64,000 nucleotides of DNA. Source: Alphaproteobacteria bacterium. Its GTDB lineage: Bacteria; Pseudomonadota; Alphaproteobacteria; Acetobacterales; Acetobacteraceae. Of the stretch, positions 9,400 through 60,707 are shown one piece after another (position 1 is the first letter of the stretch; the number at the start of each line of letters is the position of its first letter). The stretch covers positions 1 through 64,000 of the forward strand of contig VGDM01000014.1 in NCBI GenBank assembly GCA_016869715.1, given 5' to 3'. The notes beneath the pieces are model-generated. The model was not told where the DNA came from. It made no database searches and was given only the letters and a program-made list of their open reading frames with translations. Position numbers and translations under genes: made by a program.

Positions 9400-9477
<78 letters not shown>

Positions 9478-47426: not shown

Positions 47427-47453
47427 CACCCTTAGGGCCAAGCGAGGCTTCGG

Positions 47454-47482
47454 TTGCGCCGGGCGGGCCTGATCGGCATATT
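47454..47482 (+). promoter_or_regulatory. Possible promoter of the srfB locus
   Basis: TTGCGC at 47454-47459 and CATATT at 47477-47482 are 17 bases apart, in an unusually AT-rich patch (47477-47510) for this genome, 37 bases before the srfB ATG. Matches to the sigma-70 consensus are weak (3 of 6 and 4 of 6), so this is a suggestion only. Confidence 0.2.
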
Positions 47483-47518
47483 AATTTGTATCTGTTTTTA
47501 TTCTCAGGGTTTTCAAGA

Positions 47519-50494
47519 ATGCAGGGCCTGCCGCAAATCATCAGCCTCGTGCCGCAGACCGGTCTGCAATTCATTGACATCCGGTTCAACCTGGACCGCC
47601 TGCCGCGCGCGCCGCGTTCCTTCTGGGAACAACCGCTGCCGCCAGGTGCTGACCCGGCCAGTGCCGGCCTGGTCAATTTGCGCCGCCTGACCGAAAGCGG
47701 TGAAGGGGCGCTGCTGGACCCGATCAGTGGCCGCAGCCCACCGGATGATGAAATCTACCAGGTGGGGCGCGGCCAGGCGCTGGAATTCATCTTGGGGCGC
47801 TGGATACCGTTACCTTATTTCCGCGTGGCGGCTGTGGGGGCATCGGGCCAGGAAGTCTATGACAAGGGGCCGACCAATTGGGCGCGGCTGCGCATCAGCG
47901 CACTTTCGGCCCCGGATGAGGAAGGGCATACGCATCACGCGGTCCTCGCCTTTGATACGGCTCTGCGCACACGCGAAGAAGGCCGCCCCTATACCGCGAT
48001 TTCACCAAACGATAGCGAACGCGCCGGCGAATTCACCTTTGTGTCAGACCGGGAACAGACAACCTGGTTCATGAATGAACCCTGGCTGATCCAGTGGCTT
48101 GAAGAAGTCTTGCAGGAAATGCGTGCCGCAACTGGCCGGCGCCCACGCCCTGAGGATGAGCAACGCGCCTGCGAACATTGGGCGCGCTACATCACGCTGC
48201 TGGAATTGCTGTCCGAAGCGCGGATCCTGCCGCGCGTAAAGCTGGTGGATGTAGTTTCCAACAGTAAATCCTATGAACCGATCAATGTTGATCTGGTGCT
48301 GGATATCGGCAATGCGCGTACTTGCGGCATTTTGGTAGAAGATGAACGCGACAGCCGGCTTAATCTGAACAATAGCTATCCTTTGAAGCTGCGGGATTTG
48401 AGTGTGCCGGAATTAGGCTATGCCTTTCCCTTCGAAAGCCGCGTGGAGTTTGCGCGTGCCAGTTTCGGCAAGGATGCGCTGAGCCGCCGTTCCGGGCGCG
48501 GTAATGCCTTTCAATGGCTAAGCCCGGTGCGCATCGGCCCGGAAGCAGTGCGGCTTTCCGCTGCCGCGCGCGGGAATGAAGGGGCAACAGGGCTTTCATC
48601 GCCCAAGCGCTATCTTTGGGATGAAAGACCGACGACTCAGGTCTGGCGCTTCAATGGCATGGCCGCTGATGGCGTGACCACCGAACCGCCCGTCAGTGGC
48701 AGCTTCATGGCCTGGGTGACAGAAGAAGGCGAAGTGCTGCGGGCCAAGCCGCGCGGCCGTGGCGGCGCGCCGCGCCAACCTGCCGTACGTGCGCGCTTCA
48801 GCCGTTCATCGCTGATGAGCTTTCTGCTCGCGGAAATTCTTTTGCAGGCGCTGTCGCAAATCAATTCGGTAGAAACGCGCTATGCGCGGAGCTTCCCCGA
48901 TGTACCGCGCCGGCTGCGGCGCATTTTGCTCACTATGCCGCCGGCCATGGCGCTTGCAGAACAACGCATTTTCCGCCATCGCGCTGAAGCAGCAGTACGC
49001 CTTGCCTGGGACATGATGGGCTGGGGTAATCCCGCGCCTGGCACCGCGGCACCACCGCCGGAACCGCGCATCATCGCCAACCTTGATGAGGCGACGGCAA
49101 CACAGCTGGTGTTTCTTTATACAGAGGCAAGCCAGCGCTTGCGTGGCGATCCCGCCAGCTTCTTCGTACTGACTGGGCGCGCGCGGGATGGCTATGGCAA
49201 GGCGCCATCGCTTCGTGTCGCGAGCATTGATATCGGCGGCGGCACCACAGATTTGATGATTTGCACTTATTCCGCCGAAGCCGGACAGGAAATTGAACCG
49301 CATCAGAATTTCCGCGAAGGGTTCCGTATTGCGGGCGATGAGGTGTTGCAGGAGGTAATCCAAAGTATCGTCCTGCCGCAGCTTGAAGAAAGCCTGCGCC
49401 AGACCGGCGCGCGTGATCCCAAGGCGCTGCTGCGTGAGGTGCTGGGCGGGGATCGAGGCGCGCAAAGCGAATTGGAACGGCATTTGCGTCGGCAATTCGT
49501 GACACAAGTGCTGGAACCGACTGGGCTTGCGATCCTGCACGGCTACGAAAAGATAGATGAACGCGCTGCCGGCGAATTCCTGCGCGAAAAGCTCGCCACC
49601 ATTCTGCACGGACGCGATGTGGCCGCACCCTTGCGCTATTTCGAACAACAGGCCGTACGCGCCGGGGCTGCCGGTTTCCAGTTGCTGGAAGTCGAAATGG
49701 CGGCGGCCGCGGGCAGTGTGGATGCTATTGTGCAGGCAGCGCTTGGCCAGGTGATCGCTGATCTCTGCGAAGTGGTCTATGCCTTTGATTGCGATTGGCT
49801 GCTGCTGTCCGGCCGGCCATCCAGGCTCCGCGCGATATTTGACATGATGCTGGCCAAGATGCCGGTACCGCCGCATCGCATTGTCGGCATGCATCGCTAT
49901 CGCGCGGGAAGCTGGTATCCCTTCCGCGATTCTGCCGGGCGCGTGGATGATCCTAAAACCACGGCGGCGGTCGGCGCCATGCTCTGCGCTGTGGCAGAAG
50001 GACGCCTGGAAAGCTTCCTGATGCGCACCAGCCGGCTTGCCATGCGCTCGACTGCCAAATACCTCGGCCGGATGGAAATCTCGGGGCAAATCCTCCGGCA
50101 GAATGTATTGCTGCAGGACCCGGATGCGGCGCTGTCCAAGGCGCCGGGCCCATCGCAGGATGTGAAATTCTCCGTAGAATTCCGCGCACCAGTTTTTCTT
50201 GGTTTCCGCCAATTGGATCTGGAACGCTGGACCGCGAGCCGGTTGTATATTCTGGAATACGCCAATCCTGATAATGTACCGCGGCTGAAACTGCCACTAA
50301 AGCTTGCCATCCAGCGCGCGGAAATAGACCCCGAAAGCGCGGACGCAGAGGAATTGCGGGAGGATTTCACCATAGACGAAATCCTGGATGCCGAGGGCGA
50401 TCCGCAGCATCGCGGCATTGTGCGCCTGCGCCTGCAAACTGAACGTAGTGAAGCCGGTTATTGGCGCGACACCGGCGCGCTTTCGGTGCCGTGA
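47519..50494 (+). CDS. srfB: SrfB-family protein (Hsp70/actin-like ATPase fold)
   Basis: This 991-residue protein matches the virulence factor SrfB family. It bears the three nucleotide-binding signatures of the actin/Hsp70 fold: phosphate-1 VDLVLDIGNARTCGILVEDE at about residues 257-276, phosphate-2 VASIDIGGGTTDLMICTYS at about 567-585, and an adenosine-type LLLSGRPSRLRAIF at about 760-773. The 250-residue N-terminal domain has no motif I recognise. It has no signal peptide or membrane helix, so it is cytoplasmic. I start at ATG 47519 (MQGLPQIISLVPQTGLQFID) because homology-like sequence begins there, though the frame opens at 47390. SrfB was named in Salmonella as an SsrB-regulated gene; its biochemical activity is unknown. 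First gene of the cluster, 10 bases before srfC. Confidence 0.85.
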   Translation: MQGLPQIISLVPQTGLQFIDIRFNLDRLPRAPRSFWEQPLPPGADPASAGLVNLRRLTESGEGALLDPISGRSPPDDEIYQVGRGQALEFILGRWIPLPYFRVAAVGASGQEVYDKGPTNWARLRISALSAPDEEGHTHHAVLAFDTALRTREEGRPYTAISPNDSERAGEFTFVSDREQTTWFMNEPWLIQWLEEVLQEMRAATGRRPRPEDEQRACEHWARYITLLELLSEARILPRVKLVDVVSNSKSYEPINVDLVLDIGNARTCGILVEDERDSRLNLNNSYPLKLRDLSVPELGYAFPFESRVEFARASFGKDALSRRSGRGNAFQWLSPVRIGPEAVRLSAAARGNEGATGLSSPKRYLWDERPTTQVWRFNGMAADGVTTEPPVSGSFMAWVTEEGEVLRAKPRGRGGAPRQPAVRARFSRSSLMSFLLAEILLQALSQINSVETRYARSFPDVPRRLRRILLTMPPAMALAEQRIFRHRAEAAVRLAWDMMGWGNPAPGTAAPPPEPRIIANLDEATATQLVFLYTEASQRLRGDPASFFVLTGRARDGYGKAPSLRVASIDIGGGTTDLMICTYSAEAGQEIEPHQNFREGFRIAGDEVLQEVIQSIVLPQLEESLRQTGARDPKALLREVLGGDRGAQSELERHLRRQFVTQVLEPTGLAILHGYEKIDERAAGEFLREKLATILHGRDVAAPLRYFEQQAVRAGAAGFQLLEVEMAAAAGSVDAIVQAALGQVIADLCEVVYAFDCDWLLLSGRPSRLRAIFDMMLAKMPVPPHRIVGMHRYRAGSWYPFRDSAGRVDDPKTTAAVGAMLCAVAEGRLESFLMRTSRLAMRSTAKYLGRMEISGQILRQNVLLQDPDAALSKAPGPSQDVKFSVEFRAPVFLGFRQLDLERWTASRLYILEYANPDNVPRLKLPLKLAIQRAEIDPESADAEELREDFTIDEILDAEGDPQHRGIVRLRLQTERSEAGYWRDTGALSVP

Positions 50495-50504
50495 GGATCA
50501 GGTC

Positions 50505-53135
50505 ATGACAACACCGAATGCCGAAAATGAAGCCCTGGCACAAAGCTGTGATGCGGTGGCGGATGCCGCGCATAGTGCGCTTGAATGGATTGCTATCGCA
50601 GGCGACATCGTGCGGGAAGAAGGCCCTGCCTTGGCGCGCGAATTCCGCCGTGAAGGCTTGCGGGCACGCAAGCTTGCCAATGCTGCGCGTCGGCCGATGT
50701 GCGTTTCGGTCTTTGGCCCAAGCCAGCAGGGGAAAAGCTATCTGATCGCTTCCCTGGCGCGGAAGGAAGGCAAGCCCACCACGATCCGCTTTGGGGAGGA
50801 GCTGCGCGGCTTCAACCGCGACATCAATCCCGATGGTGGCAAGGAATCGACCGGTCTGGTCACACGTTTCACGACGCGGCCAGTGACCGGCATGCCCGGC
50901 ATGCCTGTGGTCTGTCGCATGCTGTCTGAAACCGACATCGTGAAGATCATGGCCAACGCCTTCATGGAAGATTTCGACCGTGATACGGTTGTGCCGCTTG
51001 AAGGCGCCGTGATTGAAGCGAGCATCGCGAAGCTGCGCGCCAAGGCCGCGCCGGCGGCAGTGGGGCGGCTGAATGAAGATGATATCTATGACCTCTTCGA
51101 ATATTTTGAACGCTACTTCCTGAACCACCCAACCCATCTGGCGCTAAAGCCGGGTGCCTGGCGGGAAATCGAGAGCCTAGCGCCGCGCCTTGCCCTTGCC
51201 GATCGGGTAGAGCTTTACGGGCTGCTTTGGAACAATACGCCGACCATGACAGCGACGGCGTCGAAATTGGTGCAGGCGCTGGCGCAGCTCGATTTTCCGG
51301 AAGAAGCCTGCTGCCCCATGCTGGCGATTGAGCCAAAGGCGCAGAGCATTATTGATGTCGAGACCATGTCGCATCTCGGCAAGGGTGATGGTGATCCAGT
51401 GCCGGTGGCTACCCGCGCCGGGCGCCGGGCAGAATTGCCGCGCGCGGTGCTGACCGCGGTTGTCGCTGAATTGCAATTGCAATTGGAAGACAAGCCCTTC
51501 GACTTCTTCGACTATACCGATCTCCTGGATTTCCCAGGCGCGCGCGGGCGTGAGAAATACAACGCCGCGAAGGCTGAGGAAGTGGCGCAGAGCGATCTTT
51601 TCATGCTGCTGCGTCGCGGCAAGGTTGCCTATTTATATCAGCGCTATCTTGCGGAACAGGAGCTGACTTCAATGTTGCTCTGCCTTAAGCACAGCAATCA
51701 GGAAGTGCGCACCGTGCCAGCCATGGTACGAAACTGGATTGATGGCACGCACGGCGCCACGCCTGAGGCACGAAAGGGCCAGGATGTCGCCTTATTCCTA
51801 GTGCTGACCATGTTTGACATGGAATTTGAGATCAAAGGCGGCGCAGAAGACAATGTGGAACGCTGGTCCACACGGTTGAAGACGACGATCTTCGAATTCC
51901 TCGGCCTTGGTCATGACTGGCCATCGGAATGGGTACCTTGGCAACCTTTCAATAATACTTTCTGGCTGCGCAACCCCGAAGTGTTGAACAAGGGGCTGTT
52001 AGATTATGACGCAAATGGTCGGGAAGTGAGCTTCCGCGATCCGGAACGCGTGGCGCGGCTGAAGGCAAATTTCCTCGCCAATCCGGATGTACAAAAGCAT
52101 TACGCCGATCCTGAACGCGCCTGGGAAGCCGGTATGGCCTTGAATGATGGCGGCATTGGCTATCTTTCCGAAAGGCTCCGCCCCGTCTGCAACCCCGCGC
52201 TGAAGCGCCGGCAGGTGCAAGGCCAGCTTGGTGATCTTGCCAAGCGTATGGCAGGAAGGCTGGAAGGCTATCATGTCTCCGGCGATCTGGATGCCGAATT
52301 GGCCAAGCGCCGGGCAGAAGCGCGGCTGGTCGGGCGGCAATTGCTCGCTTGCGCAGAAGCGCAGGCTTTTGGCTTGCTGCTGCGCGAATTGCAGGTGCGG
52401 GGCGAAACCCTGGCCGAGCTGTTTCGCCGCCAGCAATTGGCCGCTGCTGAGACGCCATCAGCCGTGACCGCGCCTGTCGGGCGCAAGACCACAGCGCGCG
52501 AATTGCGGAGCGAATTCGAAGCGCTGTTTGAAGACGATCCCGCGCCTCCCGCCTCGGTTGAAGGAGCGGAAGAAGGCCCGCGCGATCAAGCAGATCTTTT
52601 TGCGGAGGCCGCAGTGGCAGAATGGTTGCAGAATATGCACCGCTTCGCCGCGCGCAATGACAGCCCCGAATTGTTCCGCATGGACCGCGAAGGCATTGCG
52701 ACATTGGTTACGCAGCTTGCCGCCGCCGCACGTCGCTTGAAGCTGCGTGAAAACATCGCAACGCGCATGCGGACCGAAGCAGCCTATAATGAATCCATGG
52801 CCAATCGGCTGCTGAAACCGGTGATGATTGCGGAACGCGCGATCAATGATTTCGTCACCTGGATGGGCTTTGACAAAATCCCGATTGAAGCCCGCCCCAA
52901 GGCTGGGCGCGACGGGCGCAGTATTTTCATCCGCCCGTCTGCGCCTGCCGATGACATGCCGCGGCTTTCCGAAACGCCCATGGCCTATGACGCTGCTTTT
53001 TACGTGGATTGGGCTGTCGCCTTTGTGCGACTGGTGGAAGACAATGTGCGCGGCGCGGGGGGCGCAATGGTGGATGAGAAATCCAATGCTCGTCTCGGCA
53101 GCCTGCTGAGTGGTCTGCGCAAGGTGGCTGCCTGA
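50505..53135 (+). CDS. srfC: SrfC-family protein (dynamin-like GTPase features)
   Basis: The 876-residue protein matches the SrfC (putative virulence effector) family. VSVFGPSQQGKSYLIASLAR holds a Walker A/G1 motif (GPSQQGKS, about residues 71-78). YTDLLDFPGARGREKYN at about 337-353 gives a DxxG-type G3, and ALFLVLTMFDMEFEIK at about 432-447 a TMFD in place of T/NKxD G4. A long helical C-terminal half follows, typical of dynamin-like or bacterial GTPase stalks. No membrane helix or signal peptide is visible, so it is cytoplasmic, perhaps peripheral to the inner membrane. ATG 50505 has GAGGATCAGG just upstream. The G-motif assignment is mine, from sequence inspection. Confidence 0.82.
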   Translation: MTTPNAENEALAQSCDAVADAAHSALEWIAIAGDIVREEGPALAREFRREGLRARKLANAARRPMCVSVFGPSQQGKSYLIASLARKEGKPTTIRFGEELRGFNRDINPDGGKESTGLVTRFTTRPVTGMPGMPVVCRMLSETDIVKIMANAFMEDFDRDTVVPLEGAVIEASIAKLRAKAAPAAVGRLNEDDIYDLFEYFERYFLNHPTHLALKPGAWREIESLAPRLALADRVELYGLLWNNTPTMTATASKLVQALAQLDFPEEACCPMLAIEPKAQSIIDVETMSHLGKGDGDPVPVATRAGRRAELPRAVLTAVVAELQLQLEDKPFDFFDYTDLLDFPGARGREKYNAAKAEEVAQSDLFMLLRRGKVAYLYQRYLAEQELTSMLLCLKHSNQEVRTVPAMVRNWIDGTHGATPEARKGQDVALFLVLTMFDMEFEIKGGAEDNVERWSTRLKTTIFEFLGLGHDWPSEWVPWQPFNNTFWLRNPEVLNKGLLDYDANGREVSFRDPERVARLKANFLANPDVQKHYADPERAWEAGMALNDGGIGYLSERLRPVCNPALKRRQVQGQLGDLAKRMAGRLEGYHVSGDLDAELAKRRAEARLVGRQLLACAEAQAFGLLLRELQVRGETLAELFRRQQLAAAETPSAVTAPVGRKTTARELRSEFEALFEDDPAPPASVEGAEEGPRDQADLFAEAAVAEWLQNMHRFAARNDSPELFRMDREGIATLVTQLAAAARRLKLRENIATRMRTEAAYNESMANRLLKPVMIAERAINDFVTWMGFDKIPIEARPKAGRDGRSIFIRPSAPADDMPRLSETPMAYDAAFYVDWAVAFVRLVEDNVRGAGGAMVDEKSNARLGSLLSGLRKVAA

Positions 53136-53161
53136 GACATGAACCGCAAAGGCCGAACCCC

Positions 53162-54190
53162 ATGATACTGCGTGTTGAAAATGAACGGCGCTTGTCGCTG
53201 GGCCATGCGCGCATCACCATCGCTGGCCTGCAGGCGCCGGCTGACGGCGGGTTCCGGATTCTTCGCGAAGGCTATGCGGCTGCAAATCTCGGCCGGCGTG
53301 GTTGGCAAGTGCAGGAAGAAAAGCTGGCCGCGGTAGAAATCCGCCAGGAAGGCCGCGATACGATTCTTGTGATTGGCCCGAGGCTGACGCGACATCTTGA
53401 ACCAGGCCCCTTGGTGTTTTTGCTGCCGGCGACAGGCTTGGAAGCAAGCCTGTTTTGGCCCGATGATATTGATGTGTTCGATGGGGATTTACCGCCGGAA
53501 CCGGTGATGCCGCAGGAGCCAGAGGAAGCGCCAGCGCCGCCGCCGGTTGCTTCCGCACCGCCAGCGCCAGCGCCTGCTCCCGCGCCGCCGCCACCGCCAC
53601 CGCGTGAAGAAGTTGCCGTATCTGAAGGACAAGAAGGCGCCTCACGCACGCCGCTGTTCGCCGGCATCGGGTTGCTATTACTAATAGCGGTTGGGGGCGC
53701 TGTCTGGTGGTTCACTGATTCCGCGCAAGCGCCAGCGCCAATCGCAACGCCGGCGCCGCCCGCATCACCGGCACCGTCACCGGTGCCAGTCACAGCGGAA
53801 CGCCCCTGGCTGGAACGCAGCAATGCCATGAACCTCCGCGATCTGGTCCAATCCGCCCCCGATGTCGCTGCCATTCATGCTGCCGCGCTCAGGCGCCAAG
53901 CCGCTGGACGGCATGATGATGCGCTGGTGCTGTTTGAAGAAGCTGGTGAGCGCGGCCATGCACCGGCGCTGACCGCCGTGGCACGGCTTTATGACCCTAT
54001 TGGTTTTGTCGCCGGGCGCCCCTTCCGCGCGCCTGACCCGCGTGCGGCAGCGCGTTATTATCGCGATGCGGTGCAGAGGGGTGATGCGGCTGCAGAAGCG
54101 CCGCGTGCCGCGCTCAAGAGTTGGCTCGATGAACAAGCGCGCGCGGGGAATGGCACAGCGGAAACGGCGTTAAGGGAGTTTTGGCAATGA
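53162..54190 (+). CDS. Single-pass membrane protein with Pro-rich linkers and Sel1/TPR-like tail
   Basis: I do not recognise a named family. The 342-residue protein has an N-terminal beta-rich region of about 110 residues (ILRVENERRLSLGHARITIA, VEIRQEGRDTILVIGP), a Pro/Ala linker (about 112-150), one membrane helix (TPLFAGIGLLLLIAVGGAVW, about 163-182), a second Pro/Ala linker (about 190-215) and a C-terminal helical-repeat region (HDDALVLFEEAGERGHAPAL, DPRAAARYYRDAVQRGDAAA) resembling Sel1/TPR repeats. Topology by composition: N-terminus cytoplasmic, tail periplasmic. It lies 26 bases after srfC and its TGA overlaps the next start, so it could link SrfBC in the cytoplasm to the periplasmic components. 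Confidence 0.75.
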   Translation: MILRVENERRLSLGHARITIAGLQAPADGGFRILREGYAAANLGRRGWQVQEEKLAAVEIRQEGRDTILVIGPRLTRHLEPGPLVFLLPATGLEASLFWPDDIDVFDGDLPPEPVMPQEPEEAPAPPPVASAPPAPAPAPAPPPPPPREEVAVSEGQEGASRTPLFAGIGLLLLIAVGGAVWWFTDSAQAPAPIATPAPPASPAPSPVPVTAERPWLERSNAMNLRDLVQSAPDVAAIHAAALRRQAAGRHDDALVLFEEAGERGHAPALTAVARLYDPIGFVAGRPFRAPDPRAAARYYRDAVQRGDAAAEAPRAALKSWLDEQARAGNGTAETALREFWQ

Positions 54191-56136
54191 TGTTGTGTCG
54201 CGCGGTTTTGGTTTTGGCGCTTGGGCTGTTTTGCGCCATGCCAGTTGCGGAAGTGAGCGCGCAACAAGCCGCGCGCCAACCGCTGTTGATGGACGGCCGC
54301 AGCGCCTTGTTCCAGCGCGTGATCCTGCGGCCCGGTACGCGCTTGGCTGAACGCCCGGATGCAAATGCGCCTGCACAGCCCACACCTGGCTTTGGAGTGT
54401 TTTACGTCTATGCGCGCCAGGGCAGTGGCGCAAGTGCCTGGCTTGAAATTGGTGCCGCACAGGATGGCCGCACGCAGGGTTGGGTTCCGGCAGAACGTAC
54501 CATTGATTGGAAGCAGACCATGGTACTGGCTTTCAACAACCCGGCCGGGCGTGACCGTGCGATGTTCTTCCGCGATGCCGAAACACCACGCGCGCTTTGG
54601 CTGAATATACGCGGCGGCGCGGCGGAGGCGACACGGCTGCGCGAAGCCGCACGCGCCAATGCTGAAGGGCCGGTGATTGCGCTAGAGCCTGAGAATTTCA
54701 TTGATATCACGCGGCAATTCTATCTGCTGCCCATCATCTCAGCCGATCGCGTGGAAAATGAGGCGGCGCAGGAAGCGCGACTTTTGGAAGTGATTTCTGC
54801 CCCAGCCCAGGCGGCGCCACCACCGCCGGCTGATCCCGATGCGCTTCGCAATTATCGAGGCGCTGTGATTTTTGTGGTGGATACTACTATCAGCATGGGG
54901 CCTTACATTGAACGCACGCGCGAAGCGCTGAAACGCGTGGTGGATCGCATTCGCGATACCGCCGTACGCGATAATTTCCGCTTCGGCATGGTGGCGTTTC
55001 GTGACCATATGGACGGCAATCCCCAGCTTGAATATGTCACGCGCATGGTCTCCTTGCCTGATCTGGCCGAGGCTTCGGATGCGATCCTGCCGCGCCTGTC
55101 CCAATTGGCCGAAGCGCGCGAGAGCAATGAAGGCTTTGATGAGGATTCTCTCGCTGGCATCAAGCTCGCCTTGGATGAGGTGCCCTGGCGGCAATATGGC
55201 GGGCGCTTTGTCATCCTAATCACGGATGCCGGGGCGCGCGATGCGAAGGACCCGCGCGGGCAGACGCAAATGGGCCCGGAAGAAATGCGCCAATTGGCGC
55301 AGTCAGAAGCCAAGCAAGTTGCGATCTACGCAATTCATTTGAGGACTCCGGAAGGGCGTAATAACCACGCGCGGGCTGAGCGGCAATACCGCGAACTGAC
55401 GCGCTTTGGCGCGGCGGGGGAGCTTTATTACCCTATCAATGAAGGCAACCTGAACCAATTCGGCCAGACCGTGGATGCGCTAACGGATGCGTTGCTGACG
55501 CAAGTGGCCGTTGCCGTCGGGCGGCCTATCGCCGGTATCCGCGCGCCGCAAAGCGCCGCTGAACGGCGTATTTCGGAACAGGCTGAGATTGTCGGCACAG
55601 CCATGCGGCTTTTCTACCTGGGGCGCGAAAGGCAGCAAACCGCGCCCGATGTGGTGCGGAGCTTCGTGCTGGATCAGGATTTGAACCCGGCGGATCCGCG
55701 GCCGGAAAGGCGGCCCTTAGATGTGCGTGTGCTGCTGACGCGCAACCAGCTTTCCGATCTGGCAACGACCTTGCGCAACATCATCCAAGCACAAGCGGCG
55801 GCGCGGCTTTCACCGGAAAGCTTCTTTGAACGCGTGCGCGCTGCCGCCGCTGCGACCGCGCGTGACCCGCGCCGCATGGCGGAGTTTCAGCGCCTTGGTG
55901 GGGCTTTTGGTGAAATCCTGCAAGACCTGCCCTATCAAAGCCAGATCATGGAATTTACGCAGGAAGAATGGAACAGCATGGGGGCCGGGCGGCGCACCGA
56001 AATCGTTAATGCGCTGGAAGCGAAGCTGCGCCTTTATGAGGAATTCAACCGCCAACCATCGCTTTGGGTAAGTTTCGATGGTGGGCGCAATCCCGGTGAG
56101 GCGATGTATCCTGTGCCACTGGATGCGCTGCCCTGA
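54187..56136 (+). CDS. Periplasmic SH3-like plus vWA-domain protein (PpkA periplasmic-region-like)
   Basis: The 649-residue protein has a signal peptide (AVLVLALGLFCAMPVAEVSA), an SH3-like region at about 40-110 (VFYVYARQGSGASAWLEIGA, GWVPAERTIDW), and a von Willebrand A domain at about 222-420. There VIFVVDTTISMGPYIERTRE gives the MIDAS DxTxS at residues 232-236, FGMVAFRDHMDG the next loop and FVILITDAGARDAKDP the third MIDAS Asp. A long C-terminal helical region follows. SH3-like plus vWA is the layout of the periplasmic half of PpkA, the type VI secretion kinase, but there is no kinase domain or membrane anchor here. ATG 54187 overlaps the upstream TGA (ATGA). Confidence 0.82.
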   Translation: MMLCRAVLVLALGLFCAMPVAEVSAQQAARQPLLMDGRSALFQRVILRPGTRLAERPDANAPAQPTPGFGVFYVYARQGSGASAWLEIGAAQDGRTQGWVPAERTIDWKQTMVLAFNNPAGRDRAMFFRDAETPRALWLNIRGGAAEATRLREAARANAEGPVIALEPENFIDITRQFYLLPIISADRVENEAAQEARLLEVISAPAQAAPPPPADPDALRNYRGAVIFVVDTTISMGPYIERTREALKRVVDRIRDTAVRDNFRFGMVAFRDHMDGNPQLEYVTRMVSLPDLAEASDAILPRLSQLAEARESNEGFDEDSLAGIKLALDEVPWRQYGGRFVILITDAGARDAKDPRGQTQMGPEEMRQLAQSEAKQVAIYAIHLRTPEGRNNHARAERQYRELTRFGAAGELYYPINEGNLNQFGQTVDALTDALLTQVAVAVGRPIAGIRAPQSAAERRISEQAEIVGTAMRLFYLGRERQQTAPDVVRSFVLDQDLNPADPRPERRPLDVRVLLTRNQLSDLATTLRNIIQAQAAARLSPESFFERVRAAAAATARDPRRMAEFQRLGGAFGEILQDLPYQSQIMEFTQEEWNSMGAGRRTEIVNALEAKLRLYEEFNRQPSLWVSFDGGRNPGEAMYPVPLDALP

Positions 56137-56144
56137 GGGTGTGC

Positions 56145-56900
56145 ATGAACCAAGCCGCACCAACCCTGCTACTGCAAGATTTGATCATTCGCCATCAGGC
56201 ACCAGGGGGTGCTCCAGGCTTTGAACTGACCATCGAGGCATTTTCCATCGCACGAGGCGAAGCCGTTGCACTGATCGGCCCTTCCGGTTCGGGCAAATCC
56301 ACCCTGCTCGATTTTCTGGCCTTGGCGCGACGCCCCGCGCATGCCGCGCAATTTCTTATGACACCGCGTGATAGCACGGCAATAGACCTTGCCGCGCTGT
56401 GGCGTACCCGCGACGAAAGCCGCCTGACCGCCATTCGCGCGGCGCATTTCGGCTATATTTTGCAAACTGGTGGGCTGCTGCCGTTTCTTTCCGTGCGTAG
56501 GAATATCGCGCTGAGCCAGGCGGTACTCGGCCGGCCTGATCCCGCCCATATCGAAGCCTTGGCGGCACGGCTTGAAATTGCGTCCTTGCTGGACCGCATG
56601 CCCGCTTCGCTTTCTGTAGGGCAGAGGCAGCGTGTCGCGATTGCCCGCGCCTTGGCGCATCGCCCGGAAATCTTGCTGGCCGATGAACCAACCGCGAGTG
56701 TGCATCCCGCCCTGGCCGATACGGTGATGGCGCTGCTGCTGGAACAGGCGCGTGAGCAGGATACGGCACTGATCCTGGCCACGCATGACCCAGACCGCGC
56801 GGCACGCCATGGTTTTGCGCTGCTGCCAATCCGCACGGAAGCGAGCCAAGGAACTGGGCGTTCCTGGCTTGGCCGCGCCAGCATGGGCGCAACTGCATGA
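56145..56900 (+). CDS. ABC transporter ATPase (LolD/TagT-like)
   Basis: The 251-residue ATPase has Walker A IGPSGSGKSTLLDFLALARR (about 44-63), Q-loop GYILQTGGLLPFLSVRRNIA, signature ASLSVGQRQRVAIARALAHR and Walker B EILLADEPTASVHP, in which the usual DP after the Walker B is replaced by HP. The class drives FtsX-type permeases (LolCDE, MacB, TagTS), which transmit mechanical force rather than move solute through the membrane. ATG 56145 is preceded by GAGGG; GTG 56139 is less likely. Its stop overlaps the permease start by four bases. Gene order ATPase-permease-FGE-fold protein is the tagT-tagS-tagR order. Confidence 0.85.
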   Translation: MNQAAPTLLLQDLIIRHQAPGGAPGFELTIEAFSIARGEAVALIGPSGSGKSTLLDFLALARRPAHAAQFLMTPRDSTAIDLAALWRTRDESRLTAIRAAHFGYILQTGGLLPFLSVRRNIALSQAVLGRPDPAHIEALAARLEIASLLDRMPASLSVGQRQRVAIARALAHRPEILLADEPTASVHPALADTVMALLLEQAREQDTALILATHDPDRAARHGFALLPIRTEASQGTGRSWLGRASMGATA

Positions 56901-58120
56901 GTGGAGGCTCCTCTCACACCGGGCTGCTTTGCGGGCTTTCGCTGCGTGATCTTTTGCATGAACGCACGCTGGCACTTTGTTCGCTGATTGGTCTTGCGGC
57001 CGTCCTGGCGCCACTTATAGTGCTATTTGGCTTGAAGCAGGGTGTGATTGATGGGCTGCGGGCGGAACTGATTGATAACCCGCGCAGCCGCATGATCGTG
57101 AACGCAGCCAATCGCAATTTTGACCAGGCATTTCTCACGCGCCTTGCTGCGCGGCCTGATATCGCCTTTGTCATTCCACGCATTCGCAGCCTGAATACCG
57201 AAGCGCGATTTGAAAACCCAGCGCGCCCTGGCACGGTGCTGCGCGCAGAATTACTCGCCACCGCCGCGGGTGATCCCTTGCTGCATAGCCTGCCCAGCAT
57301 TGCGCCAAACCAAATTATCCCAAGCGCTTCCTTCGCCGCGCGGTTGGATTTGCAGCCGGGCATGAATGTGACGCTGCGCGCCCTTCGCGGTGATGGCGGC
57401 GCAAGAGAGGTGCTGAATTTTCCCGCCACCATCGCTGCCATCGCGCCGCCTAACGCCTTTGGCCGCGATGGCGTTTTCGTTGACCTCAAGACGCTGCTGC
57501 TGGTGGATGGCTTCACCGATGGCGCGCTGCCCGCTTCTGCTGTACCCGCCGATATCGCGGATGATGCCACGCGCATCTTTGCCGGTTTTCGCGCCCATGC
57601 GCGGCGCTTGGAAGATGTGACGCGCATTGACCATGATCTGCGGCGCGATGGGGTGGAGGTTGAAACGCTCGCGGAACAGGTGGAAGGCTTGCTCAGCCTT
57701 GATCGAAGCCTCACGCTGCTTTTTGCCTTGCTCGCGGGGCTGGGTGGGGTTGGGTATCTCGTCTCACTTGGTGTCGGGCTTTATGCCAATGTGGAACGCA
57801 AACAACGCGATTTGTCGCTGTTGCGCCTGATCGGGCTGTCGCGGCGCGATCTGGTGGTGTTTCCGCTGTTGCAGGCGCTGATCATCGCGGGCGCGGGGGC
57901 GGCGCTAGCAAGCCTGCTCGCGCTGGCGGTAGCGGGTTTGGTCAATCGCCTGCCACTTGCGGGTGCCAATGCCGCTGGCGCGCGGGCCATTTGTGTCATT
58001 GAAGCGCGGCATCTGTTGCTGGCATTTTTGGTAAGCCTTTTGGGCGCGGCAGTATCCGCAGCTTCAGCCGGGTATCGCGCCGCCCGGATTGAACCTGCGG
58101 AGGGGCTTCGCGATGCGTAA
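56897..58120 (+). CDS. FtsX-type ABC permease (TagS-like)
   Basis: The 407-residue protein has four membrane segments, one near the N-terminus (ALCSLIGLAAVLAPLIVLFG, about 26-45) and three at the C-terminus (about 270-292, 328-352, 372-392), enclosing a periplasmic domain of about 220 residues (RSMIVNAANRNFDQAFLTRL-like start). VERKQRDLSLLRLIGLSRRD is the coupling-helix motif of FtsX/LolC/MacB permeases. The N-terminal LSLRDLLHERTLALC also recalls TagS. The stop overlaps the start of the next gene (ATGCGTAA), so ATPase, permease and FGE-fold protein are translationally coupled. No lipoprotein carrier (LolA-type) is present, which argues against a simple lipoprotein exporter. Confidence 0.83.
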   Translation: MSGGSSHTGLLCGLSLRDLLHERTLALCSLIGLAAVLAPLIVLFGLKQGVIDGLRAELIDNPRSRMIVNAANRNFDQAFLTRLAARPDIAFVIPRIRSLNTEARFENPARPGTVLRAELLATAAGDPLLHSLPSIAPNQIIPSASFAARLDLQPGMNVTLRALRGDGGAREVLNFPATIAAIAPPNAFGRDGVFVDLKTLLLVDGFTDGALPASAVPADIADDATRIFAGFRAHARRLEDVTRIDHDLRRDGVEVETLAEQVEGLLSLDRSLTLLFALLAGLGGVGYLVSLGVGLYANVERKQRDLSLLRLIGLSRRDLVVFPLLQALIIAGAGAALASLLALAVAGLVNRLPLAGANAAGARAICVIEARHLLLAFLVSLLGAAVSAASAGYRAARIEPAEGLRDA

Positions 58121-59783
58121 GCTGTTTCTTGCTGCCATGATCCTTTTCGCGCCAGCCGGAAACGCGCAAGAAAGATGGCCAGCCGAATTCTGGAATCCGG
58201 AACCGCTTGCCGATGATCTGATCCTGCCCATGCCTTGCGGCGGCGCAATGGTGTTTCGCCCAGTGCCAACACCTTTGGGTCAAGGGCTGTTGGCGGATCG
58301 GCCCGCCATGCTCGGCCAGGCGGATGCGCAAACCAATTACAGCGAATTTCTCCGCCAAAGCTTCATCGCCGGCCCGTTTCGCGGTGCCGATGCCGCTGCA
58401 CCGCCGCGCTATTACATCGGCAAATATGAGGTAACGCGCGATCAATACAGCGCGGTCACCAGCGAAACCTGCCCAAGCCCCGCCACCGCCGGGCGCCTGC
58501 CGCAGGCAGATATTACCTGGCATGATGCCGTCGGCTTCACGCTGCGTTATTCTACCTGGCTAGCGCGTAATGCGCGTGACGCGCTGCCGATGCGTGATGA
58601 GGCGCGCGCCTTTGCGCGCCTGCCGACCGAAGATGAATGGGAGTTCGCCGCGCGCGGTGGTGCGGCGGTATCAGAAGCGGATTTCAGCGCGCGTGTATTC
58701 CCCATGCCGGAAGGCATGCAGCGCCATGTCTGGTTTCAGGGCACGCGCTCCTCAGGCGGGCGCGTGCGGCCCATTGGCATGCTGGAACCCAATCCGCTTG
58801 GCATTTTCGATATCCTTGGCAATGTTGCGGAATGGGTGCTGGAACCCTATCGGCTCAATCGCGTTGGGCGGCCGCATGGTCAGGCCGGCGGCATGGTGGC
58901 ACGCGGCGGGGATTTCCTGACGCCGGAGGATCAAATCCGTTCAAGCCTGCGCGTGGAATTACCACCGCTTGATCGCAACGGCGAAGCGCTGCGGCTGCGC
59001 AGCCTTGGCTTTCGCCCGGTGCTTGCTTTGATTGCGACAAGCAGCGATCAGCGCCCCGCGCAATTGCGCGCAGCGTTTGAAGCTGAAGCGCAATCGCGTG
59101 GTAGCGCCAGTGATGATCCGGCACGGCTTTTGGAAGTGTTGAAGAATGACACGCCAGACCCATCGCTGCGCCAGGGCATTGATCGTGTAGGCGCGGCGCT
59201 GCGTACCGCGCAACGAGAGCGCAATGACCAGGAAATGCAGGCGATCCGAGGCCAGATCGCTGCGGCGGCGCAAATCGGCCGGCAAATCCTGCTCGCAGAA
59301 GGTTTTGGCGAATTGCTTGGCGCCTTTGCACGCGTGCAGGCGGAAACCGTGCAGGCGCAGCGGACGCTTGCCGAAGATCAGGGCCGCATCGCGGCTGCAA
59401 CACAAGTCGAGGTGCAAGCAGCGCTCCGCCGGCAGCAGGAACGCACGCAGCAAATCACCAATACCATGGCGCGGATTGAAGCAGCGCTGCGGAGCCAGGC
59501 GGAAGGCCAGCCCGCGCGTGCGCAGGAATTGACGGCGAGCTATCTGCGCAGCGTGCTGGCCGTTGGCCGCAGTGCGGATCGGTTGCGCATTGCGGATGCG
59601 GGCAATGTGGTGCACCAGGAAATGCAGGCGCAGGACGTGCAGTACCTGCCGGAATTGGCGCGCATTGCGGCGCGGCACATGGTTGCGGTCAGCAATGGCA
59701 ATCCGCCAAGCCGCGAACAGGCCTTGTCTGATTTGAAATCCGTCTTGCCTCCTGCAACGCCGGCCCAGCCAGCTCGCCGATAG
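58113..59783 (+). CDS. Exported formylglycine-generating-enzyme-fold protein with coiled-coil tail (TagR-like)
   Basis: The 556-residue protein has a signal peptide (KLFLAAMILFAPAGNA), then an FGE-sulfatase/SUMF1 domain at about 60-310: YYIGKYEVTRDQYSAVTSET, ARLPTEDEWEFAARGGAAVS, NPLGIFDILGNVAEWVLEPY and MVARGGDFLTPEDQIRSSLR. The paired cysteines that bind copper in true FGE are not evident, so an enzymatic role is doubtful and a binding role, as for TagR, is likelier. The last 240 residues are strongly helical with Ala/Gln/Arg-rich heptads (LRTAQRERNDQEMQAIRGQI, VQAALRRQQERTQQITNTMA), longer than TagR. It is predicted to be periplasmic. Start ATG 58113 overlaps the permease stop. Confidence 0.84.
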   Translation: MRKLFLAAMILFAPAGNAQERWPAEFWNPEPLADDLILPMPCGGAMVFRPVPTPLGQGLLADRPAMLGQADAQTNYSEFLRQSFIAGPFRGADAAAPPRYYIGKYEVTRDQYSAVTSETCPSPATAGRLPQADITWHDAVGFTLRYSTWLARNARDALPMRDEARAFARLPTEDEWEFAARGGAAVSEADFSARVFPMPEGMQRHVWFQGTRSSGGRVRPIGMLEPNPLGIFDILGNVAEWVLEPYRLNRVGRPHGQAGGMVARGGDFLTPEDQIRSSLRVELPPLDRNGEALRLRSLGFRPVLALIATSSDQRPAQLRAAFEAEAQSRGSASDDPARLLEVLKNDTPDPSLRQGIDRVGAALRTAQRERNDQEMQAIRGQIAAAAQIGRQILLAEGFGELLGAFARVQAETVQAQRTLAEDQGRIAAATQVEVQAALRRQQERTQQITNTMARIEAALRSQAEGQPARAQELTASYLRSVLAVGRSADRLRIADAGNVVHQEMQAQDVQYLPELARIAARHMVAVSNGNPPSREQALSDLKSVLPPATPAQPARR

Positions 59784-59948
59784 TGTCTGGCCGTAGCGAT
59801 CAAGGATGAGCCCAGAGGAGAGCAGGGCAGCCCCGCTCTCTGCTGCAGCCAAGGATTTCAATCACCATATTCCGGCGTTAGACTGGCCTCACTGGTGCCG
59901 AGTCGCTGCAGCACCCCTTTCACCGCTTTTTTGGACGGAGCCACGAGC

Positions 59949-60707
59949 ATGAGGCGCGACAAATTATTGATACGTCGGAACATTATCTTGGCAATTGCGC
60001 TCGCCATGTGCTGCGTGGAATCACCTGCTGAGGCGGAGCCGCTTCTCGAAGATCCTTTTGGCATCATTGGTACCGCGCCGACCGCTATTGGCAGCCAAAC
60101 ACTAGGTTTTGGCCTTGGCTATACGCGGGCACGAGATGGCGCCAAACGGGATCTTTATGGCGGTGCGCTTGAAGCAGAAGCGGGCCTGGTGCGCGGGCTT
60201 GATCTGCGCTTTGCGCAAACGCTGGAATATGGCCCAGCAGCGCCTTATCCATCAGATGAAGCGGCGCGGGTTTGGGGTGGCCTTTCGCAACTCGGTCTGC
60301 GGTGGCAATTCATAGAAGAGGAAGGCTGGCGCCCCGCAATCGGTGTTTTCGGTTCAGTGCGCACAGCCTATGGCGAGACCAGCGGGCCATCTCAGAGCGG
60401 GCAGATTGTTGGCCTGCTTAGCAAGACCATCATCGAAGGCCCACGCCCGCTGGCGCTTTCGCTCAATGCCGGCTGGTCTGAGTTGTTCAATCCGGCGCCG
60501 GGTGAAAGGGCAGGTCGGTATGAATTCGCCGCAGGCTTGGCGCAAAGCATTGGGGAGGATACCTCGCTTGGCGTGAGTTATTTGCGCAGCCAACAGGATC
60601 GCGGCGAGAAGGATCAGAACATCGTGGCGGCCGGGTTCTGGCATCGCTTGGGCGGAAGGGGCCCGATCCTGGCAGCCGGGGCCGGGGTCGGCATTGGGGA
60701 AGATTGA
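59949..60707 (+). CDS. Predicted outer-membrane beta-barrel protein
   Basis: I do not recognise a named family. The 252-residue protein has a signal peptide (IILAIALAMCCVESPAEA) and a mature part of alternating-hydrophobicity strands: GSQTLGFGLGYTRARDG, YGGALEAEAGLVRGLDLRFA, WRPAIGVFGSVRTAYGE, LALSLNAGWSELFNPAPGER and EDTSLGVSYLRSQQDRGEKD. This looks like a barrel of about ten to twelve strands. It lies 165 bases after the FGE-fold gene on the same strand, with a possible short hairpin at 59818-59840 between, so it may be the outer-membrane part of the locus or a separate unit. ATG 59949 is chosen for the signal peptide. Confidence 0.65.
   Translation: MRRDKLLIRRNIILAIALAMCCVESPAEAEPLLEDPFGIIGTAPTAIGSQTLGFGLGYTRARDGAKRDLYGGALEAEAGLVRGLDLRFAQTLEYGPAAPYPSDEAARVWGGLSQLGLRWQFIEEEGWRPAIGVFGSVRTAYGETSGPSQSGQIVGLLSKTIIEGPRPLALSLNAGWSELFNPAPGERAGRYEFAAGLAQSIGEDTSLGVSYLRSQQDRGEKDQNIVAAGFWHRLGGRGPILAAGAGVGIGED

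Follow-up and report, generated by a model that had tools for sequence, protein, structure and literature searches.

SrfB and SrfC have, to our knowledge, been called virulence factors since about 2000 with no mechanism attached to them. In Xenorhabdus the SrfA, SrfB and SrfC proteins co-immunoprecipitate (PMC6950479), and Salmonella srf mutants have a reported defect in swarming only (PMC4219756). A second described system is the damage sensor of the type VI secretion system (T6SS). The roles of the Pseudomonas PpkA, TagT, TagS and TagR genes have been described (PMC11881912), and in P. aeruginosa puncture with the tip of an atomic force microscope, or polymyxin B nonapeptide, triggers assembly of the H1-T6SS in a tagQ- and ppkA-dependent manner, the authors concluding that the TagQRST-PpkA pathway senses outer-membrane damage (PMC11881912). 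In 2013 Campbell et al. reported that srfBC and tagQRST/ppkA lie next to each other in host-associated Deltaproteobacteria (PMC3608642). Among Deltaproteobacteria the srf-tag pair was found in host-associated genomes only, in a neighbourhood that also lists hap and ligA, and among the matches listed for the open-licence literature this paper alone makes the srf-tag link. Here we describe a locus in a window of 64,000 nucleotides (contig VGDM01000014.1, our C14, of the alphaproteobacterial draft genome G000, which comprises 3.55 Mb in 196 contigs) where the genes for SrfB and SrfC are followed by those for a single-pass adaptor, a von Willebrand factor A (vWA) protein, an ABC ATPase, an FtsX-type permease and a protein with the fold of formylglycine-generating enzyme (FGE). 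The seven genes from SrfB to FGE form a cluster on one strand, all of them intact and under purifying selection.

Homology to the T6SS sensor and conservation of the locus

Because the same genes occur in the same order in T6SS clusters, it is well supported that the last four genes of the cluster are homologues, in order, of the periplasmic region of PpkA and of TagT, TagS and TagR, which belong to the T6SS threonine-phosphorylation sensor. In a draw of 398 genomes of the phylum (the outputs suggest a single draw, and both counts are taken as such) SrfB exceeded its cut-off in 21 genomes and the vWA profile matched 15. Seven of these 15 had no SrfB above the cut-off; six are of family code f80, Pseudomonas-like by inference, and the seventh corresponds to locus L181. 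The vWA region lies in open frames of 1,017–1,189 residues in the six f80 genomes, and in the five that were fetched it forms the C-terminal part of an open reading frame (ORF) of 991–1165 residues within a T6SS cluster (5/5). The cluster order was TssJ-TssK-TssL-TssM-TagF-PP2C-kinase/vWA-ABC-FtsX-FGE in all five, which we take to be the arrangement of Pseudomonas PpkA-TagT-TagS-TagR. All five kinase/vWA ORFs match a T6SS kinase query, Pkinase being found by Pfam in the one scanned, and they match the window vWA profile at 659–668 bits over about 620 residues, with the alignment to their C-terminal part running from profile positions ~18–25 to 646 of 646. The window ABC ATPase matches its homologues in the same place of T6SS loci at 257–266 bits. 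The order vWA-ABC-FtsX-FGE is common to L176–L180, L183, L184 and L091; a T6SS cluster of this kind in Tistrella mobilis encodes the kinase and the vWA protein in two separate genes. A further likeness to TagR lies in cysteines 50 and 128: of 100 sequences of the FGE-fold protein, T6SS ones included, 98 and 99 have them.

The gene order was then compared across 106 non-redundant SrfB loci, a non-random set taken partly from the 80 best of 575 matches to the window SrfB and otherwise from relatives, family draws, phylum draws and plasmids, with named and unnamed loci overlapping in source. Near-identical loci (150 to 127) and then loci with less than 8.6 kb downstream (127 to 106) had been removed, and module genes were counted solely on the strand of SrfB. 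SrfC lies beside SrfB in 102 of the 106 loci. The combination of vWA, ABC and FtsX, hereafter the sensor module, is present in 78, FGE as well in 75, and the full set of SrfC, vWA, ABC, FtsX and FGE likewise in 75, ordered as in the window. All 78 module loci contain a Sel1-type adaptor, as do 11 of the 28 other SrfB loci. Gaps between genes are −60 to 100 bases in 60–77 of the 78 module loci, depending on the pair, and in 68 of 75 for FtsX-FGE, with starts inferred by profile. This conserved synteny supports the view that the seven genes are one co-inherited unit, and the original prediction of a single apparatus, against which rarity of vWA, ABC and FGE genes beside srfBC would have spoken, was not refuted by it.

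The arrangement is widespread in Alphaproteobacteria. All seven genes are found in 20 of 20 fetched same-genus loci (L031–L050, a contig end cutting FGE in L047), and SrfB in 34 of 34 other same-genus genomes searched; the closest named relatives of the window SrfB, 95–97% identical, are five Roseomonas sp. metagenome-assembled genomes and one of Asaia bogorensis, among those 80 best matches. Eight of the 15 vWA genomes of the phylum draw, the window's own included, also have SrfB, where about 0.8 would be expected by chance; in one of the eight, G380, the two genes are on different contigs. The seven-gene set also occurs in another phylum (Desulfovibrionaceae locus L168) and is plasmid-borne in some hosts, and SrfB is found in a water-kefir Gluconobacter and a soil Lelliottia. 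In a draw of 289 genomes of the class the vWA profile matched 17, of which 11 are SrfBC-type by gene context; the other six comprise two T6SS-type genomes (one with a second, tubulin-type locus), one that is tubulin-type only, one without a recognised partner and two with matches at contig ends.

Several features differ from the T6SS sensor. No Pfam kinase family, and so no Ser/Thr kinase, was matched by any of the eight proteins of the locus; the adaptor has a different cytosolic domain, and SrfB and SrfC stand upstream. A kinase homologue is absent from 77 of the 78 module loci, L168 included, whereas Campbell et al. read PpkA as a kinase (PMC3608642). VipB, the T6SS sheath protein, has no match in G000, where other T6SS genes were not searched, or in 17 of the 34 other same-genus genomes, some of the VipB-negative ones being incomplete; the whole module was fetched and seen in seven of those 17. 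Given these genomes, the sensor arrangement does not depend on a T6SS. New with respect to the 2013 report are thus the lack of a kinase in 77 of 78 loci, the spread in Alphaproteobacteria and the independence from T6SS.

Six TagQ-like lipoproteins were made into a profile, which gave matches to 45 ORFs of the fetched loci (a count with seeds and duplicates), including ORFs of f80 T6SS loci, of other SrfBC loci and of both tubulin loci described below. Some are on the strand opposite to the operon, and one scanned TagQ-like ORF only (L077) passed the glycine-zipper cut-off. In a tree of 41 vWA sequences, with groups set by gene context and long branches present, the six sensors of T6SS type occupy two positions; a topology that unites them was rejected (approximately unbiased test, p 0.00426, a quick tree preceding the test), and 0 of 200 bootstrap trees joined them. 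As the T6SS-type sensors do not form one clade, sensor and output seem to have been recombined in evolution.

Individual loci vary in layout. L181 and L193 have the sensor module with no SrfBC or T6SS genes recognised nearby, and L156, L164 and L189 have it without a recognised FGE gene, L189 having a UDP-sugar dehydrogenase gene after FtsX. In L133, L134, L136 and L138, two of which are titled Competibacter or Competibacteraceae, neither SrfC nor adaptor was recognised on the same strand within ~10 kb downstream of SrfB. More than 5 kb, including a 1,420-residue ORF, separates SrfB from SrfC in L131:9935-21425, and the vWA gene is duplicated in tandem in a near relative (L039:10584-14254). 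Klebsiella accounts for 114 of 125 plasmid-record matches to the vWA and FtsX genes, and the one Klebsiella plasmid inspected (L092) reads SrfA-SrfB-SrfC-adaptor-vWA-ABC-FtsX-FGE.

The adaptor, a kinase hybrid and a possible tubulin-like partner

At E 0.1 Pfam gave no match for the adaptor. Its N-terminal domain is followed by a proline-rich linker, a single hydrophobic segment and a C-terminal Sel1-like domain, in which a profile search of solved structures identified Sel1 repeats. Using the two ends as separate profiles gave different sets of relatives. The Sel1-like part matches the C-termini of the split T6SS kinases L091 (Tistrella) and L184 (E 5.9e-20 and 1.7e-19), proteins beside the sensor in L193 and L181 (E 6.2e-11 and 2.8e-7) and, at two tubulin loci, a small protein adjoining the sensor (E 4.0e-9 and 2.0e-5). 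Matches of the N domain are to SrfBC adaptors, also at loci without the module (L059 and four of Competibacter type); it has no match in the T6SS kinases L091 and L184 or in the tubulin loci. The best matches to shuffled sequences were at 0.042 for the Sel1-like profile and 0.33 for the N-domain profile. Judged from sequence, the adaptor is a Sel1-like domain shared with a T6SS kinase, joined to a different, predicted cytosolic domain that is mainly found with SrfBC.

In one genome (G891) both kinds of transducer occur in a single protein. The ORF at L200:11905-13806 (minus strand) encodes 633 residues with a kinase domain, the N domain, a hydrophobic stretch and Sel1; its kinase domain matches Pkinase at E 5e-52 and the PpkA-type kinase of L177 at 268.9 bits. 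It sits inside an SrfB-SrfC...FGE operon, and the other SrfBC locus of the same genome, L137, is without the module. L200 is a natural hybrid of the two transducers and speaks for a single signalling position that would be addressed by both the kinase and the SrfBC-linked N domain.

A further partner is indicated by two genomes of genus code g57, where a Tubulin_2 protein of ~1,000 residues (E 1.8e-56 and 5.5e-57) is followed directly by a Sel1-type adaptor with vWA-ABC-FtsX-FGE (L194:6121-16178 and L195:6062-16670). The Tubulin_2 protein is a putative additional cytosolic partner of the same sensor. Five of 270 genomes of the class have Tubulin_2 and two of the five, both g57, show the module; the other Tubulin_2 loci (L197–L199) have no module in the ~20 kb fetched. 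For the adaptor swap, the kinase hybrid and the tubulin partner we found no description in the available text of the open-licence literature among the matches listed. A transposon screen of Avibacterium biofilm with hits in vWA, FtsX and Sel1 genes (PMC13119452) is not shown to concern this locus and was not used.

Gene boundaries and individual proteins

The original prediction placed eight ORFs on one strand, and these are present at the expected coordinates (Table 1) with the SrfB, SrfC, vWA, ABC, FtsX and FGE families that it named, each Pfam match exceeding the cut-off of its family. It was right about gaps of 10 and 26 bases flanking SrfC, but we count three overlapping start/stop pairs and not four: adaptor/vWA by 1 base, ABC/FtsX by 4 bases and FtsX/FGE by 8 bases (from ATG 58113). 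The vWA and ABC genes do not overlap, being spaced by 2 bases with GTG 56139 or 8 with ATG 56145.

Table 1. Features of the proposed SrfBC-sensor locus, with positions in the window
Feature	Coordinates	Strand	Description
Intergenic stretch, M23 peptidase gene to srfB	47427..47518	.	possible promoter region; promoter scan detected none
SrfB	47519..50494	+	991 residues, no hydrophobic segment; PF07520 955.6 bits
SrfC (Virul_Fac)	50505..53135	+	876 residues, P-loop NTPase, GTPase-like motifs; PF10139 760.7 bits
Single-pass adaptor	53162..54190	+	342 residues; N domain ~1–108, hydrophobic segment 159–187, Sel1-like domain ~228–330
vWA protein	54190..56136	+	VWA 29.2 bits; N-terminal hydrophobic (signal-like) segment; homologue of periplasmic part of T6SS kinase PpkA
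ABC ATPase, TagT-like	56139..56900	+	ABC_tran 90.5 bits; same-place homologue in T6SS loci
FtsX-type permease, TagS-like	56897..58120	+	FtsX 35.5 bits; hydrophobic segments 23–54, 271–296, 318–355, 363–393
FGE-fold protein, TagR-like	58113..59783	+	FGE-sulfatase 97.4 bits; start in the original prediction TTG 58089
Candidate outer-membrane barrel, accessory	59949..60707	+	Porin_4 below cut-off; start in the original prediction GTG 59895

Maintenance of intact genes by selection holds for the seven genes from SrfB to FGE, which have ratios of nonsynonymous to synonymous substitution rates (dN/dS) of 0.04–0.13 against three near relatives; neighbouring genes such as xseA are likewise under purifying selection in the same comparison. 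The eighth gene, the barrel, is not counted as part of the conserved system. Promoter and terminator scans of the locus were uninformative. Ten further window ORFs that were scanned belong to ordinary families, and positions 9400–34211 carry ordinary chromosomal genes (FtsH, TolB, a sigma-70 factor) with a tRNA-Pro at 9400–9477. Several same-genus contigs (L032, L038 and L042) break off ~500 bases before srfB, their first 120 bases being CCG-rich, which probably reflects a break in the assembly.

SrfB has no solved relative under E 1. Residues D262, G264, N265, D571, G573–D578 and G765–R769 are invariant in 14 aligned sequences, and we take them to be Hsp70/actin-type nucleotide motifs (phosphate-1, phosphate-2 and adenosine). 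SrfC, with no solved relative at E <0.01, contains the motifs GPSQxGKS, DFPGxR and T[K]xD, presumably GTPase motifs G1, G3 and G4; in 50 aligned sequences the key G1 and G3 residues are conserved in all 50, as are T and D of G4, and K in 40. The possibility, raised by these motifs, that SrfC is a dynamin was rejected, as Dynamin_N (PF00350) matches G000 four times and none of the matches is on contig C14. By motif, the GTPases among the fetched Dynamin_N matches are presumably of Era, EngA and MnmE types.

In type VII (MacB/Lol/FtsEX) ABC permeases a large periplasmic domain separates the first of four membrane segments from the second, and the window permease fits this topology, with its first hydrophobic segment separated from the other three and a match to PF02687. 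The N-terminus of the FGE-fold protein is signal-like by eye and below the hydrophobicity cut. FGE enzymes have their catalytic cysteines in the C-terminal half of the domain, where this protein has no conserved cysteines, and an active sulfatase-modifying FGE was therefore rejected. Apart from cysteines 50 and 128 no column has cysteine in more than 6 of 100 sequences, so the FGE-fold protein is probably a binding scaffold.

The outer-membrane barrel had been proposed as a machine part, and we rejected it because it is not conserved. Its sole Pfam match is Porin_4 at 16.1 bits against a cut-off of 27, and among L031–L175 it is matched by L050 alone, over 189 of 252 residues from ATG 59949. 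The L050 match (L050:16349-16963) covers the first three quarters only, the C-terminal end differing or being shortened. In six near relatives (L034, L035, L037, L039, L041, L043) the barrel, RlmJ and GpsA are all missing past FGE.

Relative to the Salmonella and Xenorhabdus SrfABC systems, the window shares the SrfB and SrfC families, but the gene directly upstream of its srfB is a Peptidase_M23 gene and not srfA (no SrfA profile was applied elsewhere). Among loci of family code f85, inferred to be enteric-like, eight carry SrfC and no module, whereas L087 has the module.

Interpretation of the proposed SrfBC-sensor locus

On balance we favour the reading that the locus represents the TagQRST/PpkA envelope-damage sensor in a form independent of T6SS, its output exchanged so that it is wired to the NTPases SrfB and SrfC. 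The original prediction of an ATP/GTP-driven machine was too strong, because the second half of the set has as its homologue a sensor already known for signalling, TagTSR with the PpkA vWA region. An envelope-spanning set, by contrast, holds in part: with compartments judged from domains and hydrophobic stretches, the proteins would occupy the cytoplasm (SrfB, SrfC, ABC), the inner membrane (FtsX, adaptor) and the periplasm (vWA, FGE), but the barrel does not extend the set to the outer membrane. In relatives a TagQ-like lipoprotein, unmatched in the window, would be the outer-membrane link.

Signal and output of the SrfBC-sensor system are presumed from these relationships. By homology, the TagR-like FGE protein would, together with the vWA protein and the ABC/FtsX pair resembling TagST, read a disturbance of the outer membrane or periplasm. 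The vWA protein and the periplasmic Sel1-like domain of the adaptor, domains that T6SS sensors share, may then cluster or change shape. The cytosolic N domain of the adaptor, in the place of the PpkA kinase, would recruit or switch SrfB and SrfC at the inner membrane near the damage, as its co-occurrence with SrfBC suggests. Finally, and this is the weakest step, SrfB as an Hsp70/actin-type ATPase and SrfC as a GTPase-like protein might act on the envelope, most likely in local assembly or remodelling, repair or defence.

Several observations weigh against this reading. The full module is missing in 28 of the 106 SrfB loci, with L060 and L115 having part of it, and 13 of the 21 SrfB genomes of the phylum draw are without a vWA protein. 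A vWA homologue is absent genome-wide in 17 of 18 searched genomes without an adjoining module (17 of the 28 loci plus L126). Only 65 of 78 module loci have an N domain above the 25-bit threshold, and a weak match to it (E 6.7e-4) occurs in the adaptor of L193, where no SrfBC was seen. The Sel1 profile has no match in the f80 PpkA-type ORFs. In eight of the 28 module-less loci both adaptor domains are kept with no module gene adjoining, so that Sel1 does not require the module. No TagQ match was found in the window or in L031–L050 (the rest of G000 was not searched), and incompleteness of some VipB-negative genomes bears on the independence from T6SS. As to the NTPases, hhalign of SrfB to Hsp70 and MreB gave 40.9 and 39.3 against 15–21 for controls, with weak probabilities of 26 and 33%, and the best hhalign result for SrfC is an ABC Walker region (91.6% over 44 residues), compared with 60.4% over 156 residues for the GTPase set.

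An anti-phage or conflict system is an unlikely alternative with some appeal. The vWA protein, GTPase and Hsp70-type NTPase would set a threshold as in GAP1-N2 systems, the trigger being envelope perturbation by a phage or competitor and the outcome cell suicide or arrest. Systems centred on a GTPase, with tubulin, HSP70 or kinase partners and vWA proteins, one kind having an extramembrane vWA, are described by Kaur et al. (2020; PMC7159879), and the kinase, SrfB and tubulin-like partners seen here are an analogous trio, likened by description; plasmid carriage in some hosts also fits. However, the sensor genes differ from those of GAP1-N2 systems, Pfam found no effector domain among the eight proteins, and SrfB is kept in every same-genus genome searched, not patchy. 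A search of 50,697 phage records with the vWA protein found no match; PADLOC matched the ABC protein alone, as a generic kind of ATPase and with no system-specific model (best 25 of 64 matches), and ‘srf’ is absent from the main text of PMC7159879. It is still less probable that SrfB and SrfC are a secreted effector or toxin pair whose export the module controls. Such an idea, in which PpkA-like signalling triggers SrfC export, was stated for deltaproteobacterial loci by Campbell et al. (PMC3608642); both proteins are named among putative type III effectors (PMC11942329), and a Xenorhabdus SrfABC preparation was cytotoxic to cultured cells (PMC6950479). Set against this are the lack of a secretion apparatus among the eight genes and of a VipB match in G000, the absence of hydrophobic segments from SrfB and SrfC (type III signals were not looked for), the 77 kinase-less module loci, and the presence of SrfB in all 34 other same-genus genomes searched and in the water-kefir and soil bacteria mentioned above.

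MacB- or Lol-like transport or lipoprotein handling, in which ABC/FtsX would move an envelope substrate handled by the FGE and vWA proteins with SrfB and SrfC as chaperone-like helpers, seems to us very improbable. The best NCBIfam match of the permease is LolC (26 bits) and the ATPase resembles DevA/LolD, but these matches are far below curated cut-offs, and the closest match in gene order is the TagTSR sensor, reported as signalling. That two independent units became neighbours by chance in this lineage has almost no weight: SrfBC and the module do each occur without the other, and promoter and terminator scans give no evidence either way, yet the gaps between genes are tight in most module loci, the set recurs in another phylum and on plasmids, and the adaptor unites SrfBC-linked and sensor-linked domains in one protein.

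If SrfB and SrfC are indeed the output of a T6SS-type sensor, the link predicts that they respond to outer-membrane damage in the cell that produces them, and such a role would explain their occurrence in free-living bacteria. The comparison further suggests that the sensor of T6SS retaliation exists apart from T6SS as well, with no fewer than two separate couplings to T6SS and a tubulin-like partner in addition. We put forward, tentatively and as a possibility only, that this is a general envelope-damage sensor in Proteobacteria whose cytosolic output can be swapped at the adaptor, being a T6SS-firing kinase, SrfBC (an actin/Hsp70-type ATPase with a GTPase) or a tubulin-like protein, and that in the last two the damage signal might cause a cytoskeleton-like NTPase to assemble locally where the envelope is injured. 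If true, NTPase assembly at damage would be a bacterial counterpart of cytoskeletal repair at wound sites.

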